Below the pieces are notes generated by a model that did no database searches, was not told where the DNA came from, and worked only from the letters and a program-made list of their open reading frames with translations. Source: Halobacterium bonnevillei (lineage in GTDB: Archaea; Halobacteriota; Halobacteria; Halobacteriales; Halobacteriaceae). Taken from it: a DNA stretch of 34,466 bases. A program made the translations under genes and the position numbers. The stretch is from the NCBI RefSeq assembly GCF_009831555.1, contig NZ_WUUU01000002.1:54430-88895 (forward strand). The letters are read 5' to 3'. The first letter of the stretch is position 1. Every line of letters starts with the position of its first letter. This document shows positions 19,783 to 26,174 of this stretch, one piece after another.

Positions 19783-19909
19783 ACCGGCGTCGTTTCGCAG
19801 GGGGAGTATTGAGTCCACCGGAACCGAGAACCGCGCCGGGAGCCGCCGCTGGTGGCCCGGGCGTTTCAGAGACGGACAGCCGTTCAGCGTCGTGTTCTGG
19901 ACGTGCAGG

Positions 19910-20760
19910 CTACTCGAGCGCCCGCCGCGGCACGATTCGGGGCTCGTCGTCGTCGGCGTCGAAGGAGACGGCGGCGTCGACGTCGAAGACGTCCGCGAGC
20001 AGTTCCTCGGTGACCACGTCCTCCGGCGCCCCCCAGTCGTAGACGCCGCCGTCGTCGAGCGCGACGAGGTAGTCCGCGAACCGCGCGGCCTGCTGGAGGT
20101 CGTGGAGGACGACGCAGACGGTGACGCCGCGCTCCTCGTTGAGCGTGCGGACGACCTCCATCACCCGCAGCTGGTGGTGGAGGTCGAGGTACGTGGTGGG
20201 TTCGTCGAGCAGGAGGACGTCGGTGTCCTGGGCGAGCGTCATCGCGACGAACGCGAGTTGCTTCTGGCCGCCGGAGAGCTCCGAGAGCGGCGTCTCGCGG
20301 AGCGCCTCGACGCCCGCGAGGTCGATGGCGCGGTCGATGCCGCGTGGTCGTCGGCGTTCAGCGCGTCGAGGAAGCCGCGGTGGGGGTAGCGGCCGTGGGT
20401 CACGAGGTCTTCGACCGTGAGACCGCCGGGCGCGTCGTTCTCCTGGTCGAGCAGGCCGAGTTCCAGCGCGAGTTCCTTGGCGGAGCGCTCCTGGACGCGG
20501 CGGCCGTGCAGCAGGACGGTGCCCGCTTCGGGCGCGAGTTCCGCCGAGAGCCCCTTCAGGACCGTTGACTTCCCCGAGCCGTTCGGGCCGACGAGCGCGG
20601 TGACTTCCCCGTCGGGGACGACGAGGTCCTCGCAGTCGACGACGACGTCGTCGCCGTACGCGAGTTCGAGGTCAGTCGCGAACAGCGCGGCGTCCTCGAC
20701 GGGGTCCTCGGGCGTGAACGTCACGGGGTCGTCGCTGTCGATGAGTGGGATGCGGGCCAT
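19910..20760 (-). pseudogene. ABC transporter ATP-binding protein (FepC/BtuD type), frameshifted
   Basis: Reading leftward from ATG 20758-20760, the first part (to about base 20345) has Walker A 'GPNGSGKST' and 'LLDQENDAPGGLTVEDLVTHGRY' (split motif: Q-loop LLDQE). After that the reading continues in another frame with the signature 'LSGGQKQLAF', Walker B 'VLLLDEP' and the H-loop 'VLHDLQQ'. The total is 851 bases, one short of 284 codons, so restoring a single missing base near 20341-20346 gives an intact protein. It would energise uptake by the neighbouring FecCD permease, whose stop is one base upstream of this start. It may be a real frameshift or a sequencing error in a G/C run. Confidence 0.88.
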
Positions 20761-20761
20761 G

Positions 20762-21883
20762 TTAGAACTCGTTGAAGGATTCTGTGCGGCGGAGCAACAG
20801 CAGGAAGTACGGGCCGCCGACGAGGCCGGTGACCACGCCGACCGGGACCTGGGCACCGCCGAGGCCGAGGCGCGCGACCACGTCCGCGACGACGACCAGC
20901 GCCGGTCCGGCGAACAGGCAGCCGACGAGCAGCTGGCGGTAGTCGCTGCCGACCATGGTGCGGACGGCGTGGGGCACGACGAGGCCGACGAACCCGACGA
21001 GGCCGGCGACGGCGACGGCGGCCGCGGTGGCGAGGATGGCGAGCGCGGAGAGCGCGAACCGCATGGTCTCCACGCGCATGCCGAGCGCGCGGGCGCGCCG
21101 CTCGCCGAGCAGGAGGACGTCCAGCTGGCGCGCCGCGACCAGCGCGGCCGGCACGACGAGCAGCGTCGGGACGGTGACGAGCCTGAACTCGCCCCAGCCG
21201 ACGCCAGTCAGCGACCCCGCGAGCCAGGAGACGGCGGTGCGCATCGCCCCGTTGGAGTCGATGAAGTAGAACACGCCGGTCTGGAGGCTGTTGAAGATGG
21301 TGCCGACGACGACGCCAGCGAGGACGAGGCGGACCGGGGTGGTTCCGCCGCGCCACGCGACGGCGTACACGAGCAGGAACGCGGCAGTCCCGCCGACGGC
21401 GGCGGCCAGCGGCAGGAAGTACGTGCCCAGCGAGGACACGATGACGAGGACGACGGCGAAGCCGGCGCCCGAGGAGACGCCGAGGATGTAGGGGCTGGCG
21501 AGTTCGTTGCGCGTGATGGCCTGGAAGACGGCGCCGGCGACGGCGAGGTTCGCGCCGACGAAGACGCCGACGGCGACCCGGGGCAACCGCATCGTCCAAA
21601 CGACGGCGGTGGCGTCCGACAGCGTGGAGAGGTCGGCCGCGACGCCGAGGCGCCCCGCGAGACCGTCACCGAGGACGATGGTCGCGAGAATCTCGGGGTT
21701 CGTCCAGACGGCGCGGTCGAACAGCGCGCGCCAGACGGTCTCGAACGGCATCTGGTAGGCGCCGTACCGGATCTGTACGAGCGCGGCCAGCAGGACGACG
21801 GCGGTGCTGGTCGTGACGATGGAGGCGAGCGTGGCGTCGAGGTCCGGGAGCAGGGCGTCGCGAACGCGGTACTGTCGTGACAT
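20762..21883 (-). CDS. FecCD/BtuC family ABC transporter permease
   Basis: 373 residues with about ten membrane helices. This is the permease type that imports iron-siderophores, heme or cobalamin. Typical motifs are 'LPRVAVGVFVGANLAVAGAVFQ' (split; begins LPRVAVG), 'LASPYILGVSSGAGF', 'SWLAGSLTGVGWGE' and 'GFVGLVVPHAVR'. The ATG is at 21881-21883. The ATPase gene follows after one base, and the binding-protein gene lies 131 bases upstream. A TTTAGG-N4-CCTAAG palindrome and an A/T box about 75-100 bases upstream suggest a separate iron-responsive promoter for permease and ATPase. Confidence 0.94.
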   Translation of the reverse strand: MSRQYRVRDALLPDLDATLASIVTTSTAVVLLAALVQIRYGAYQMPFETVWRALFDRAVWTNPEILATIVLGDGLAGRLGVAADLSTLSDATAVVWTMRLPRVAVGVFVGANLAVAGAVFQAITRNELASPYILGVSSGAGFAVVLVIVSSLGTYFLPLAAAVGGTAAFLLVYAVAWRGGTTPVRLVLAGVVVGTIFNSLQTGVFYFIDSNGAMRTAVSWLAGSLTGVGWGEFRLVTVPTLLVVPAALVAARQLDVLLLGERRARALGMRVETMRFALSALAILATAAAVAVAGLVGFVGLVVPHAVRTMVGSDYRQLLVGCLFAGPALVVVADVVARLGLGGAQVPVGVVTGLVGGPYFLLLLRRTESFNEF

Positions 21884-21956
21884 CGGTTGGGTGGGGCGCG
21901 CGCGGACCGAGGACGCGGTGCCGTCGGTCGGGGCGCGAGTCGAACTGCGCTTGTTC

Positions 21957-21972
21957 TTTAGGGCGGCCTAAG
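21957..21972. promoter_or_regulatory. DtxR-like operator before the permease gene
   Basis: TTTAGG-GCGG-CCTAAG, an inverted repeat with a 4-base spacer, just downstream of a TATA-like CTTTTCAACT (minus strand, 21984-21975). The core is the reverse complement of the operator at 23194-23209. Position and shape fit repression by an iron-dependent DtxR/SirR/Idr-type regulator, as known in haloarchaea. Confidence 0.65.
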
Positions 21973-22014
21973 AGTTGAAAAGCGTTCCGTCTACGGCGCA
22001 GCGGAACGGTGGCG

Positions 22015-23187
22015 TCAGGACGTGATGATTGACGCCAGTTCGCCGCGGTCGAACAGGTCCCCGGAGAACGACTCGGGGTAGAGTTCGGTGGCGAACCGCT
22101 CGGTCAGGAACAGGTGCTGGATGGGGCCCATGAAGATGGGGCCGCCCCGGTAGACGTCGCCGTTCTCGACGGCGGTGATGCGACTGGCGGTGTCGTGGTC
22201 CTGCATGAACGAGAGCACGGTGGTCTCGAACTCCTCGGGGGTCTTGGCCTCGTGGCCCCGCACGAACAGCACTTCGGGGTCAAGTTCCAGCAGCGTCTCA
22301 TAGTCGATTTTCGAGCGCTGGCTCTCGGAGAGCGCCTCGACGTCGGAGTTCGCGATGGCGTCCCGGACGTTCAGGTCGTGGAAGGACTTCTTGTTCGCGC
22401 CCTCGCCGCTGAGGTGGTACGGGGAGAACTCCGTAGGCTGGTTGCTGCCGCCCCAGACGAGTGCGCCGCGCGGCCCCTCACTGGGGACGTCCGCGGCGAT
22501 GCGGTCGACGACGTCGTCGTGGTAGGACTTGAACGCCTCGTAGCGCTCCTGCTCCTGGACGACCTGCGAGACCTTCTCGAAGGCCTCGTAGAGCGTGTAG
22601 TAGTCGTAGTCGTGCCAGGCGTCCGTGCGCCGGAAGATGGTGTTGCCGAGGAACGGCGCGGCGCGCTCCTCGAGGAATTCGACGTCCTCGCTGCTCAGTT
22701 CGAAGACGTTCGTCAGCCAGTTGGGGTCGACGAGGAAGAGGTCTGGGTCGAGGTTCAGCAGCGTCTCGCGGGAGATGCCCTGCTCGATGAGGTCGACCAT
22801 CTCGGACTCGTCGGCGTCGACGCCGTCGAGTTCGTCGTAGACGTGGCTGTGGAACCTGCCCTTCTGTCCGACGGAGGCGATGGCGTCGCTGTGGCCGAGC
22901 GCGACGAGCATGTCGGCGTACCCGGGCATGTAGACGGCGATGTCCTGGGGGACGCTGTCGAATTCGACCTCGCCGGTCGGCGTCATGGAGACCGAGTACG
23001 ACCCGGTTTCGGTGGTCGTCTCGTCGTCACTGGTTTCGGCCGCGGTCGTCGTCGTGTCGGCCGCGGCGGTGGTCTCGGTCGGTGCTTCGGTGGTGGCGTC
23101 GCCGCCCTCGTTCGGGCTGGCGCAGCCGGCGAACAGTCCTGCGAGCGCGGCGGCGCTGCCGGCTTTGATGAATCTGCGTCGTCGCAT
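22015..23187 (-). CDS. ABC transporter substrate-binding lipoprotein (iron-siderophore/heme/cobalamin class)
   Basis: 390 residues. The N-terminus has a run of arginines (MRRRRF), a hydrophobic stretch and the lipobox LFAGC, so it is exported (possibly by Tat) and lipid-anchored on the cell surface. A Thr/Glu-rich linker (about 25-60) is followed by a two-lobed helical-backbone binding domain ('IAVYMPGYADMLVALG', 'LLNLDPDLFLVDP', 'LLELDPEVLFVRG'). This is the cluster A fold used for siderophores, heme and vitamin B12. It is first in the import cluster, with the permease and ATPase following on the same strand. An operator lies between its TATA box and start. Confidence 0.93.
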   Translation of the reverse strand: MRRRRFIKAGSAAALAGLFAGCASPNEGGDATTEAPTETTAAADTTTTAAETSDDETTTETGSYSVSMTPTGEVEFDSVPQDIAVYMPGYADMLVALGHSDAIASVGQKGRFHSHVYDELDGVDADESEMVDLIEQGISRETLLNLDPDLFLVDPNWLTNVFELSSEDVEFLEERAAPFLGNTIFRRTDAWHDYDYYTLYEAFEKVSQVVQEQERYEAFKSYHDDVVDRIAADVPSEGPRGALVWGGSNQPTEFSPYHLSGEGANKKSFHDLNVRDAIANSDVEALSESQRSKIDYETLLELDPEVLFVRGHEAKTPEEFETTVLSFMQDHDTASRITAVENGDVYRGGPIFMGPIQHLFLTERFATELYPESFSGDLFDRGELASIITS

Positions 23188-23193
23188 ACCTGA

Positions 23194-23209
23194 TTTAGGC
23201 CGCCCTAAA
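23194..23209. promoter_or_regulatory. DtxR-like operator before the binding-protein gene
   Basis: Perfect inverted repeat TTTAGG-N4-CCTAAA. On the minus strand it lies between the TATA box (CTTATATTC, 23219-23211) and the ATG at 23187, so it covers the expected transcription start. It nearly equals the site at 21957-21972. An iron-responsive repressor is the likely ligand. Confidence 0.7.
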
Positions 23210-23237
23210 GAATATAAGCGCTCCGATTTTTCGGCGT

Positions 23238-23249
23238 GCCTAAACCTAA
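23238..23249. promoter_or_regulatory. Additional DtxR-type half-sites
   Basis: GCCTAAACCTAA holds two tandem CCTAA half-sites, as in the right part of the DtxR-family consensus, about 30 bases beyond the binding-protein TATA box. The left half is not conserved. It may help a regulator bind cooperatively. Confidence 0.4.
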
Positions 23250-23350
23250 TCTATGCGACAGGCTACGCCCGCCACCGACTCGGCGGCGAGCGAACACCGC
23301 GTCTGAGTTGCCGTACCACGCCCCGAGAACCGGTCACGGAGGACGGGAAC

Positions 23351-23357
23351 CTTTAAC
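23351..23357 (+). promoter_or_regulatory. TATA box upstream of the valS leader
   Basis: CTTTAAC lies about 25-30 bases before the ATG at 23382, so transcription would start at or next to that ATG. Confidence 0.45.
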
Positions 23358-23381
23358 ATCGCGCCACCGCTCTCCTCAGGT

Positions 23382-23414
23382 ATGCGCGTCGAGCCCGCGG
23401 TAGTACGTGTGTAA
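23382..23414 (+). CDS. Valine-rich 10-codon leader ORF before valS
   Basis: ATG 23382 to TAA 23412-23414 encodes MRVEPAVVRV: four valines (codons GTC, GTA, GTA, GTG) in ten residues. It sits about 25-30 bases after a TATA box, so it would be the first codon of a leaderless transcript. The valyl-tRNA synthetase ATG follows 72 bases after its stop. The match between peptide content and downstream enzyme suggests charged-tRNA(Val)-dependent regulation. This may be chance. Confidence 0.35.
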   Translation: MRVEPAVVRV

Positions 23415-23486
23415 GTTCTGTTCTCGCGACCAGCGCCGCGACCCGAACACGCAGCCACGAGACCGCACTCGACGACCCACTCAGCT

Positions 23487-26174
23487 ATGACGAACATTCC
23501 GGACAGCTACGACCCCGACCGCATCGAATCCAACTGGCAGGACGAGTGGCAGGACAGCGACGTCTACGAATTCGACCCCAGCGACTCCGACACCCAGTAC
23601 GTCATCGACACGCCGCCGCCGTACCCCTCCGGGAACCTCCACCTCGGGCACGGCCTCGGCTGGTCGTACATCGACTTCAGCGCGCGGTTCCACCGACTCC
23701 AGGGCGACGCCGTCCTCTTCCCACAGGGCTGGGACTGCCACGGCCTCCCGACGGAAGTGAAAGTCGAGGAAGTCAACGACATCCACCGCACGGACGTCTC
23801 CAACGAGGAGTTCCGCGACCTCTGCGTCGAGTGGACGAACGCCCGCATCGAGGAGATGAAACAGACGATGCGGGAGCTCGGGTTCTCCCAGGACTGGAGC
23901 GCCGAGTACCGCACCATGGACCCCGAGTACTGGGGCCAGACCCAGGAGTCGTTCGTCGAGATGGCCGACGACGACATGGTCTACCGCGACGAACACCCCG
24001 TGAACTGGTGTCCGCGCTGCGAGACCGCCATCGCGGATGCGGAAGTCGAGAACGTCGACCGGAGCGGGACGCTGTACTACGTCACCTTCGAGGGGGTCGG
24101 CAACGACGACATCGAGATCGCGACGACGCGCCCCGAGTTGCTCGCGGCCTGCGTCGGGATGGCCGTCGACCCCGACGACGAGCGGTTCGCGGACCGCGTC
24201 GGCGACACGTTCGAAGTCCCGCTGTTCGGCCAGGAGGTCGAACTCGTCGCAGACGACGACGTCGACCCCGAGTTCGGGACGGGCGCCGTGATGATCTGTA
24301 CGTTCGGCGACAAGCAGGACGTCGACTGGTGGGCCGAGTACGACTTCGACCTGCGACCGGTGTTCACCGAGGACGGCCACCTCAACGAGAACGCCGGCGA
24401 GTTCGAGGGACTGTCAATCGACGACGCCAAGGACGAGATCGCGGACGCCCTCGACGACGAGGGCGTTCTCGTCGACTCGGAGCCGACCGAGCAGAGCGTC
24501 GGCGCGTGCTGGCGCTGCGACACCCCCATCGAGATCCTCTCCAAGGAGCAGTGGTTCGTCGAGGTCGACCAGGACCTCATCCTCGAGAAGGCCGACGACG
24601 TCGAGTGGATCCCCGAGCACATGCACGACCGTCTGGTCGACTGGACGGAGAGCATGGAGTGGGACTGGGTCATCTCCCGGCAGCGCGTGTTCGCCACGCC
24701 GATTCCCGCCTGGGAGTGCCGCGACTGCGGGTACTGGCACATCGCGTCGGCGGCCGAGTGTCCCGTGGACCCCAACGAGGAGTCCCCTGCCGTGGGCGAG
24801 TGCCCCGAGTGCGGCAGCGGCGCGACTCCGGAGGAGTCGCGTGGTGCAGGCGGTGAAGCCGCCGAAACGAACTGGCGCGGCGAGACCGACGTCATGGACA
24901 CGTGGATGGACTCCTCCATCACGCCGCTGCACATCTCCGGGTGGCCCCAGGACATCGACCTCGACGACTTCGAACCCGTCGACCTGCGGCCGCAGGGCCA
25001 CGACATCATCAGGACGTGGGCGTTCTACACGCTCCTGCGGACGGGCGCGCTCACCGACGAGAAGCCGTGGGACGACATCCTCGTCAACGGCATGGTGTTC
25101 GGCCCGGACGGCAACAAGATGTCCAAGAGCCGCGGGAACGTGGTCGAACCCGACGAAGCCATCGAGGAGTACTCCGCGGACGCCGTCCGCCAGGCGCTGG
25201 CGCTGGGCGGCCGCCCGGGCAGCGACGTCCAGTTCCAGTGGAAGGAGGTCAAGTCCGCGTCGCGGTTCCTCACGAAGCTCTGGAACATCGTGAAGTTCGC
25301 GGGCGGCCACTTCGACGAGGACACGCCGGACATCGCCGACCCCGCCTACCGGGACGCCGACCGCTGGATCCTCTCGGAGCTCACGCGGGTCGCCGACGAA
25401 GTCGAGGCCGAGATGGAGGCCTACCGGTTCGACGCGGCGCTGCGCCGCCTGCGCGAGTTCGCGTGGGAGGACCTCGCTGACGACTACGTCGAACTGGTGA
25501 AGGGGCGCCTGTACAACGGCCGGCCGGGCGAGCGGGCCGCCGCCGAGAAGACGCTCTACACCGCGGTCACCTCGGTCGTCCGGATGCTGTCCGTGTTCAG
25601 CCCGCACGTCACCGAGGAGATCTGGCAGCACCTCCCGGGCACCGAGGGCAGCGTCCACAACGCCGCGTGGCCGGACCCCGACTACCTCGACGAGGACGCG
25701 GAGGTCGCAGGCCGCCACATCGCGGAGACGGCCAGCGAGGTCCGCGCGTGGAAGTCCGAGAGCGGCATGCCGCTCAACGAGGACCTCGACCGCGTCGAGC
25801 TCTACTTCGAACCCGGCCAGAACGGCAAGCTGGACACCTACGACCTCAGCGAGACGGTCAACGCCCCCATCAAGCTCGTGGAGGGCCGGCCGGACGTCGA
25901 ACTCGTGCCCGTGGACGTCGACGGCGACGAGTCCGAGATCGGGCCGGAGTTCCGGAGCGAAGCGGGCGCGGTGCTGCAGGGCATCGAGGCCGCCGACCCC
26001 GCCGAGATCCAGGCGCAGATCCACTCCGGGGACACCGTCACCGTCGAAGCCGCCGGCGAGTCCTACGACCTCGACGCCGACTGGCTGAGCGTCGACGAGG
26101 AGTACCGCGCGGAGTCCGGCGAGGAAGTCACCGTCCTCGAGGCGTCGTTCGGCACCATCCTCATCTACGAGTAG
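23487..26174 (+). CDS. valS: Valyl-tRNA synthetase
   Basis: 895 residues, class I aminoacyl-tRNA synthetase that charges tRNA(Val). The HIGH motif is H52-L-G-H55 in '[14 protein letters not shown]', and the KMSKS loop is at 544-548. '[16 protein letters not shown]' is typical of ValRS. An editing domain (CP1) lies between the two, with '[18 protein letters not shown]' carrying its conserved T-T-R-P-E. Cys pairs 'CPRC', 'CWRC', 'CRDC' and 'CPEC' are likely zinc knuckles. The anticodon-binding helical domain (about 640-800) precedes a C-terminal region. ATG 23487 is the first good start. The upstream leader ORF is described separately. Confidence 0.97.

Follow-up and report, generated by a model that had tools for sequence, protein, structure and literature searches.

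Halobacterium bonnevillei carries, in the window analysed here (the whole stretch of DNA under study, 34,466 nucleotides, G000:C2:54430-88895), an ABC importer whose binding-protein gene and permease gene are each preceded by the same short palindrome. The locus therefore raises the questions of which regulator acts on the two promoters, whether the two transcription units are controlled together or apart, and what the importer carries. We consider it highly probable that three sites, O1 to O3 (Table 1), are operators of a DtxR-family repressor on a ferric-siderophore ABC importer with two co-regulated promoters. In this explanation we infer the identity of the repressor, its metal, the transcription start sites, the cooperation of O1 and O2, and the substrate.

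Table 1. Positions of operators, promoter elements and importer genes in the window, and neighbours of exact boxes away from clear iron genes
Feature	Position	Strand	Remarks
O1, proximal operator TTAGGN4CCTAA	23195..23208		binding-protein promoter, between TATA box and ATG; exact
O2, distal operator TTAGGN4CCGAA	23230..23243	- (reading)	5' of TATA box, 35 bp from O1; one mismatch
O3, operator TTAGGN4CCTAA	21958..21971		permease promoter; exact
TATA-like box TTATAT	23212..23217	-	binding-protein promoter; good match; O2 and O1 on either side
TATA-like box TTTTCAA	21975..21981	-	permease promoter; weak yet conserved; conserved ACGGAACG upstream
Substrate-binding lipoprotein (FhuD-like), Peripla_BP_2	22015..23187	-	
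FecCD-type permease	20762..21883	-	
ATPase gene, 5' part	20239..20760	-	frame broken in assembly; signature motif in another frame
Exact box, contig C52			CopD-like, just under Pfam cut-off
Exact box, contig C79			Gluconate_2-dh3
Exact box, contig C13			no gene

Probable operator sites at the two importer promoters

The first-pass annotation had described TTTAGG-N4-CCTAAR palindromes before both the binding protein and the permease, and both are exact in the window, reading TTTAGGGCGGCCTAAG at 21957-21972 and TTTAGGCCGCCCTAAA at 23194-23209. The inverted relative orientation ascribed to them comes down to the spacer N4, which is GCGG or CCGC depending on the strand that is read; the palindromes have no real orientation. 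A TATA-like box had also been placed before each palindrome, which holds well at the binding-protein gene and less well at the permease gene, where the box is weak, though conserved; the distance from TATA to O3 is about the same as that from TATA to O1. The half-sites reported at 23238-23249 proved to be of two kinds. CCTAA at 23239-23243 belongs, as an arm, to a third palindrome of conserved position, O2, which reads TTAGGCACGCCGAA on the minus strand, whereas the outer CCTAA at 23245-23249 was not supported, being present in 0/20 other aligned pairs, and is probably incidental.

O1 lies 7 nt upstream of the ATG of the binding-protein gene, and O3 lies 74 nt upstream of that of the permease gene. 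Since the centre of the binding-protein TATA box is about 27 nt upstream of the ATG, the corresponding transcript would be leaderless, and the permease message would have a leader of about 67 nt if its start also lay about 27 nt from TATA. The 14-bp single-dimer consensus TTAGGNNNNCCTAA, proposed for IdeR/DtxR in the available text of PMC8464063, is matched exactly by O1 and O3 and with one mismatch by O2. The 19-bp two-dimer consensus TTAGGTTAGSCTAACCTAA is absent, with no in-register extra TTAGG or CCTAA at O1 or O3, and each of these is thus more readily seen as a one-dimer site than as a classical 19-bp box. In this respect the window motif equals the 14-bp consensus of the actinobacterial IdeR/DtxR operators, of which the usual form is the 19-bp element bound by two dimers, whereas the sites here are 14 bp long and stand single or paired, 34-36 bp apart, across TATA. 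A Fur-type box was set aside, as the motif is the DtxR consensus. An Rfam search of 21800-23600 gave no match up to E = 1.

When iron is plentiful, an Fe(II)-loaded repressor of the DtxR family (known as FerR or Idr in work on haloarchaea) would bind each TTAGG-N4-CCTAA as one dimer. The dimer on O1, between TATA and the leaderless start, would block RNA polymerase, and a second dimer on O2, 3.3 helical turns from O1 and upstream of TATA, would either raise occupancy or deny access to TBP/TFB. The positions of O1 and O3 fit a block of polymerase recruitment as cited for MDR1 of Archaeoglobus fulgidus, a metal-dependent repressor which is said to act in this way (PMC4158304, PMC2995911). MDR1 resembles the present case as an archaeal metal-dependent repressor and is likened here by its described action, not by its operators; the available text of these two papers does not mention an O2-like site beyond TATA.

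Conservation of the paired sites

Among ten Halobacterium orthologues (the window and L053-L061), O1 is found with at most one mismatch in all ten (window included), and O2 at exactly 35 bp in nine; in H. salinarum (L059) O1 has one mismatch and O2 is lost. Conservation within this set is 1.00 and 0.92 for the two arms of O1, 0.57 for its N4 and 0.51 for the upstream flank. After L046-L049 and L052 had been set aside as duplicates, because their match length and identity equal those of L055, L057, L058, L059 and the window, a wider comparison covered 32 loci with relatives of the binding protein. A pair spaced 34-36 bp was detected by script in 21 of these loci (35 bp in 15, 36 bp in five, 34 bp in one), in all of which the ATG follows 4-8 nt past O1. 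Four further pairs at 35-36 bp (L051, L070, L072, L079), missed by the script owing to its gene-start anchoring, were seen by eye and bring the total to 25/32. O1 occurs alone in L064, L067, L068 and L077, and neither site is present in L066 and L073. Since O2 is lost in H. salinarum and several relatives have O1 only or no box, O2 is not essential.

An alternative is that only O1 and O3 work, and that O2 is a piece of core promoter, an extended BRE (CCGAAAAA), which resembles a degraded box by chance. The distal arm of O2 is indeed CCGAA and not CCTAA in 8/9 Halobacterium orthologues and merges into a conserved A-rich stretch, and H. salinarum retains CGAAAAA without the TTAGG arm. However, conservation extends to both arms of O2 (0.92 and 0.96 in the ten orthologues) and is lower in N4 (0.62), and a perfect CCTAA distal arm stands at the same spacing in many pairs elsewhere. 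We therefore regard a chance resemblance as unlikely and prefer to read O2 as a second operator.

The probable permease promoter

The permease gene lies directly downstream of the binding-protein gene in 18/32 loci. An exact permease box is found between the two genes in 15 of these tandem loci and is missing from the other three (L055, L059, L060), in which the intergenic gap is 7-13 nt; as the box is missing solely where the gap is this short, it appears to accompany the room for a second promoter. In the seven Halobacterium orthologues with a permease site, both arms of O3 are fully conserved (1.00 and 1.00), compared with 0.75 for N4 and 0.60 for the leader. In the same seven, TTTTCAA and the bases upstream of it have mean conservations of 0.87 and 0.95, and ACGGAACGCTTTT precedes O3 in six, L053 being different.

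The permease and ATPase genes could nevertheless be transcribed by readthrough from the binding-protein promoter, in which case the permease box would drive no promoter and would be a relic or a roadblock. The weak TATA box of the permease gene speaks for this possibility, as does the predicted leader of about 67 nt, a length that is unusual in haloarchaea, and three relatives including H. salinarum manage without a permease site. The TATA-like box and the bases upstream of it have, on the other hand, been kept alongside the box, in contrast to the less conserved leader, and in the 18 tandem loci the box is gone only where the entire intergenic stretch is gone. Readthrough as the sole source of the permease message consequently seems improbable to us, and we favor a permease-ATPase unit with its own promoter, on which a single site would occupy the same place after TATA. 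A separate promoter had been thought to let the permease and ATPase be set apart from the binding protein. As the same box is found at both promoters, however, both units should respond together.

Exact boxes in the genome

The genome under study is a draft of 362 contigs with a completeness of 92%. The exact 14-mer TTAGGN4CCTAA occurs at nine places in it, compared with one for the reversed control, while with one mismatch allowed there are 24 places vs 28 for the control, which is background; the enrichment is thus confined to exact sites. In the window itself, six strand matches (three places) were obtained with up to two mismatches, a number reached by 3 of 100 shuffles. One-mismatch boxes were rejected as a class as regulon members given these counts. 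Three of them lie within a stretch of C60 that reads to us like ribosomal RNA, and the one that precedes a sufC-like gene (C11) is no more than a suggestive candidate for the regulon. A genome-wide search for the box near iron genes had been proposed as a check, and in it exact copies were enriched, with 6/9 at importer loci that we read as iron-type, and one-mismatch boxes stood at background level.

The six importer sites, which by our reading belong to iron-type ABC importers, comprise two in the window, one on C55 and three on C49. On C55 the exact box precedes a second lipoprotein gene in the same twin layout as in the window. Its product is 45% identical to the window binding protein over residues 2-248 and gave in Pfam a weak TAT signal alone and no Peripla_BP_2 match; as the similarity ends at residue 248 but the frame continues, the assembly seems to carry a frameshift in the 3' part of the gene. 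The gene lies at L012:3755-4858 (G000:C55), with its boxes 36 bp apart. On C49, two of the three exact boxes precede an RGP-type gene and one precedes the next gene (SBP_bac), after which permease and ATPase frames follow. The curated models nearest to this SBP are for phosphonate and thiamine, and it falls far below their cut-offs, so that C49 may be called iron-type only by inference. The RGP-like (reversibly glycosylated polypeptide) gene ahead of the SBP importer, L009:1024-2232, has its two boxes 29 bp apart, and pairs with a 15-bp gap as at C49 were also found in eight other genomes of the genus.

The three remaining exact boxes, on C52, C79 and C13 (Table 1), are located away from clear iron genes. 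The C13 box (L010:4993-5006; G000:C13:21492-21505) is perfect and immediately follows a TATA-like ATATTTTT. Nothing downstream of it makes a convincing protein gene, and it faces a convergent frame which we read as cobalamin adenosyltransferase-like; an iron-responsive small RNA is possible at this place.

The proposed link to iron and the DtxR-family regulators

The proposal that both transcription units are repressed in response to iron is upheld as the best reading of the locus, with a repressor and a metal that are both deduced, by the match of the motif to the IdeR/DtxR consensus, the conserved arms, and the company of importer and siderophore genes. At G012:C8 of H. salinarum, and likewise at G004:C3, the gene behind a pair of boxes encodes a class-III aminotransferase, and two IucA/IucC matches lie no more than about 10 kb away. 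Moreover, a pair lies upstream of a DtxR-family gene in G019 and G006, and a single box in G024. Among ten DtxR-family loci, which were hand-picked mostly from the lower-scoring group and are not a random sample, three have a close upstream box, two a box about 1 kb off and five none.

Five frames of the genome under study score above the PF01325 cut-off. The DtxR-family protein on C135 has the HTH (DNA-binding), dimerisation and FeoA domains all present, and the weakest of the five frames, on C7 (26.1 bits), reads to us like an Lrp/AsnC protein. No exact box was found near any DtxR-family gene of this genome. Co-occurrence ties the motif to no one DtxR paralogue, as DtxR-family genes are present in 26/26 genomes of the family, including G002, which is without TTTAGGN4CCTAAA.

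A haloarchaeal FerR/DtxR iron regulon acting on fhu genes is attributed to Leyn and Rodionov (2015) in the available text of PMC11349517, and the importer resembles this system in that fhu genes of Haloferax volcanii are said there to stand behind the ferR regulon signal and to be induced by iron starvation. According to the same text, the FhuG2 permease of Haloferax volcanii rises 12.7-fold upon iron starvation, and 5/11 FhuD proteins rise 4.5-8-fold in low iron, with 6/11 not going past 4-fold. In the same source, IucC in Haloferax is down 10.4-fold in low iron, which is called counter-intuitive, while IucA from the same operon is up 3.8-fold; thus, simple iron repression does not account for the behavior of every siderophore gene. 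The DtxR-family iron regulators named in the available text of PMC11349517, Idr1/Idr2 of H. salinarum and Idr, SirR and TroR of Hfx. volcanii, come from related haloarchaea and are likened here at the family level, not orthologue by orthologue.

Several DtxR-family proteins are present in the genome and any of them might be the binder, so that the boxes might also belong to a manganese-responsive paralogue of the SirR/MntR type and the importer might answer manganese and not iron. We consider this very unlikely, because the boxes precede FecCD/Peripla_BP_2 importers and siderophore genes linked to IucA/IucC, and because, in the available text of PMC11349517, FhuG2 and 5/11 FhuD proteins of Haloferax rise in low iron. 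Iron remains the metal to which we would assign the repressor.

In summary, the best reading is that the control system is already known, that the importer joins a known regulon, and that the twin layout is its less familiar part. A transporter that might pass as a vitamin B12 importer is hereby placed in an iron regulon, with a testable operator at each promoter.

The importer and its substrate

The genes follow the order of FhuDGC, namely Peripla_BP_2 lipoprotein, FecCD permease and ATPase, the last being read from its Walker and signature motifs. The ATPase gene (window ~19900-20760, minus strand) is split over two frames, and the relatives L046, L047 and L049 have a single frame with both motifs; the break may be either a sequencing error or a true pseudogene.

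The permease scores below the curated BtuC cut-offs, with 218.6 bits vs 461 for NF007081 and 205.7 vs 334 for NF003001. As it also falls below the curated Fhu and Fec cut-offs, the cut-off test names no substrate. A BtuF-named entry does not appear among the matches listed for the binding protein (50 Foldseek and 50 VIA rows), which by itself proves nothing. Cobalamin is nevertheless disfavored as a substrate by the missed BtuC cut-offs together with the company of the boxes. The earlier preference for iron or heme rather than cobalamin is in agreement with these misses, and within it siderophore iron is likelier than heme.

The structural model of the binding protein, built from 20 sequences, has a mean pLDDT of 78. 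YfiY with ferric schizokinen is the first of the best 50 Foldseek matches, followed by HtsA, CeuE, FhuD and PiaA among others, and siderophore binders make up most of the best matches. Among the best 50 VIA matches, a Veillonella binder and HtsA lead with Z of about 21, a molybdate binder follows at 20, and proteins that bind heme lie at 18-19. A siderophore is our best guess for the substrate, as far as such a model can suggest one. No IucA/IucC match was found in the genome under study (completeness 92%), and the importer would accordingly serve foreign siderophores.

The absence of an IucA/IucC match could also be taken to mean that the importer carries heme or another iron chelate and not a siderophore, the more so since heme-binding proteins align with Z values near the best one. 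It is, however, siderophore binders that head the best 50 Foldseek matches, and the same boxes adjoin siderophore synthesis genes in relatives; in addition, foreign siderophores are usable without synthesis of one's own. Heme or another chelate thus appears to us an unlikely alternative to a ferric siderophore.

Paired boxes across the family and the order

The layout seen in the window (gap 19-23 bp) was matched in 16/26 genomes of the family and in 0 controls, and gaps of 4-34 bp in 19/26. The 43 distinct pairs of the family fall into few classes, with a gap of 20-22 bp in 33, of 15 bp in nine and of 12 bp in one, and no other gap; the gap-15 pair of the genome under study sits before the RGP-type gene. 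At the level of the order, a pair was found in 222/293 genomes, a count that covers gaps of 4-34 bp jointly and not 20-22 bp alone, and every control cell was zero. Among the at least 82 distinct pairs listed, 60 have a gap of 20-24 bp, 21 of 6-7 bp and one of 12 bp, the listed order-level pairs weighing heavily toward few families. Many pairs are related by descent, and the counts are thus not independent.

A sample of order-level loci, of which 24/25 were parsed (L154 dropping out) and L158 gave no downstream frame, indicates what follows such pairs. Of 13 loci with a gap of 20-22 bp, ten lie before signal-peptide lipoprotein-like frames, two before aminotransferase-like frames and one before none, with Pfam applied to some only. 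Ten loci with a gap of 6-7 bp precede small, similar frames, one of which was scanned and is a DUF7552 protein, and one locus with a gap of 12 bp precedes a MoeA-like frame. In L165, the pair stands between what we read as a diverging lipoprotein gene and a FecCD-like permease gene. A 148-aa DUF7552 protein, perhaps metal related, is encoded behind boxes 20-21 bp apart at L149:1538-1981 and like loci.

These distributions bring up a more general reading, which in our view is about evenly balanced between right and wrong, of a standard haloarchaeal 'clamp' for strong iron repression, in which two single-dimer DtxR sites fixed 34-36 bp apart would flank TATA and together close a leaderless promoter; weaker units, the permease of the window among them, would have one site, and a second class, 20-21 bp apart, would serve other genes. 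No mention of DtxR sites paired on either side of TATA was found in a limited literature search that lacked the main haloarchaeal regulon papers, and no priority is claimed. The loci with two sites, with one site, and with the permease site kept or lost constitute a natural series for studying how an archaeal promoter may be repressed through single-dimer DtxR sites.

A leader frame before valS

Beyond O2, a 10-codon frame, MRVEPAVVRV (23382-23414, plus strand), precedes valS (23487-26174, plus strand) and has a TATA-like box about 30 nt upstream. It looks like a candidate valine-sensing leader peptide, acting by ribosome stalling, in an archaeon; a literature search for a valS leader peptide returned nothing. 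The pattern of this frame was matched in 20/293 genomes of the order, all within the family, with no control match, and variants beginning with MSV or MCV occur in three other family genomes (L060/L093, L061, L076). The leader comprises 9-11 codons of the form MRV..VVR. and ends about 60-80 nt before the valyl-tRNA synthetase gene. In 20/20 cases valS is downstream, starting 93-114 nt past the leader ATG, and the codons GTA GTA CGT are present in all, as the pattern partly demands. GTA makes up 8% of the valine codons across ten window frames, and valS has none.
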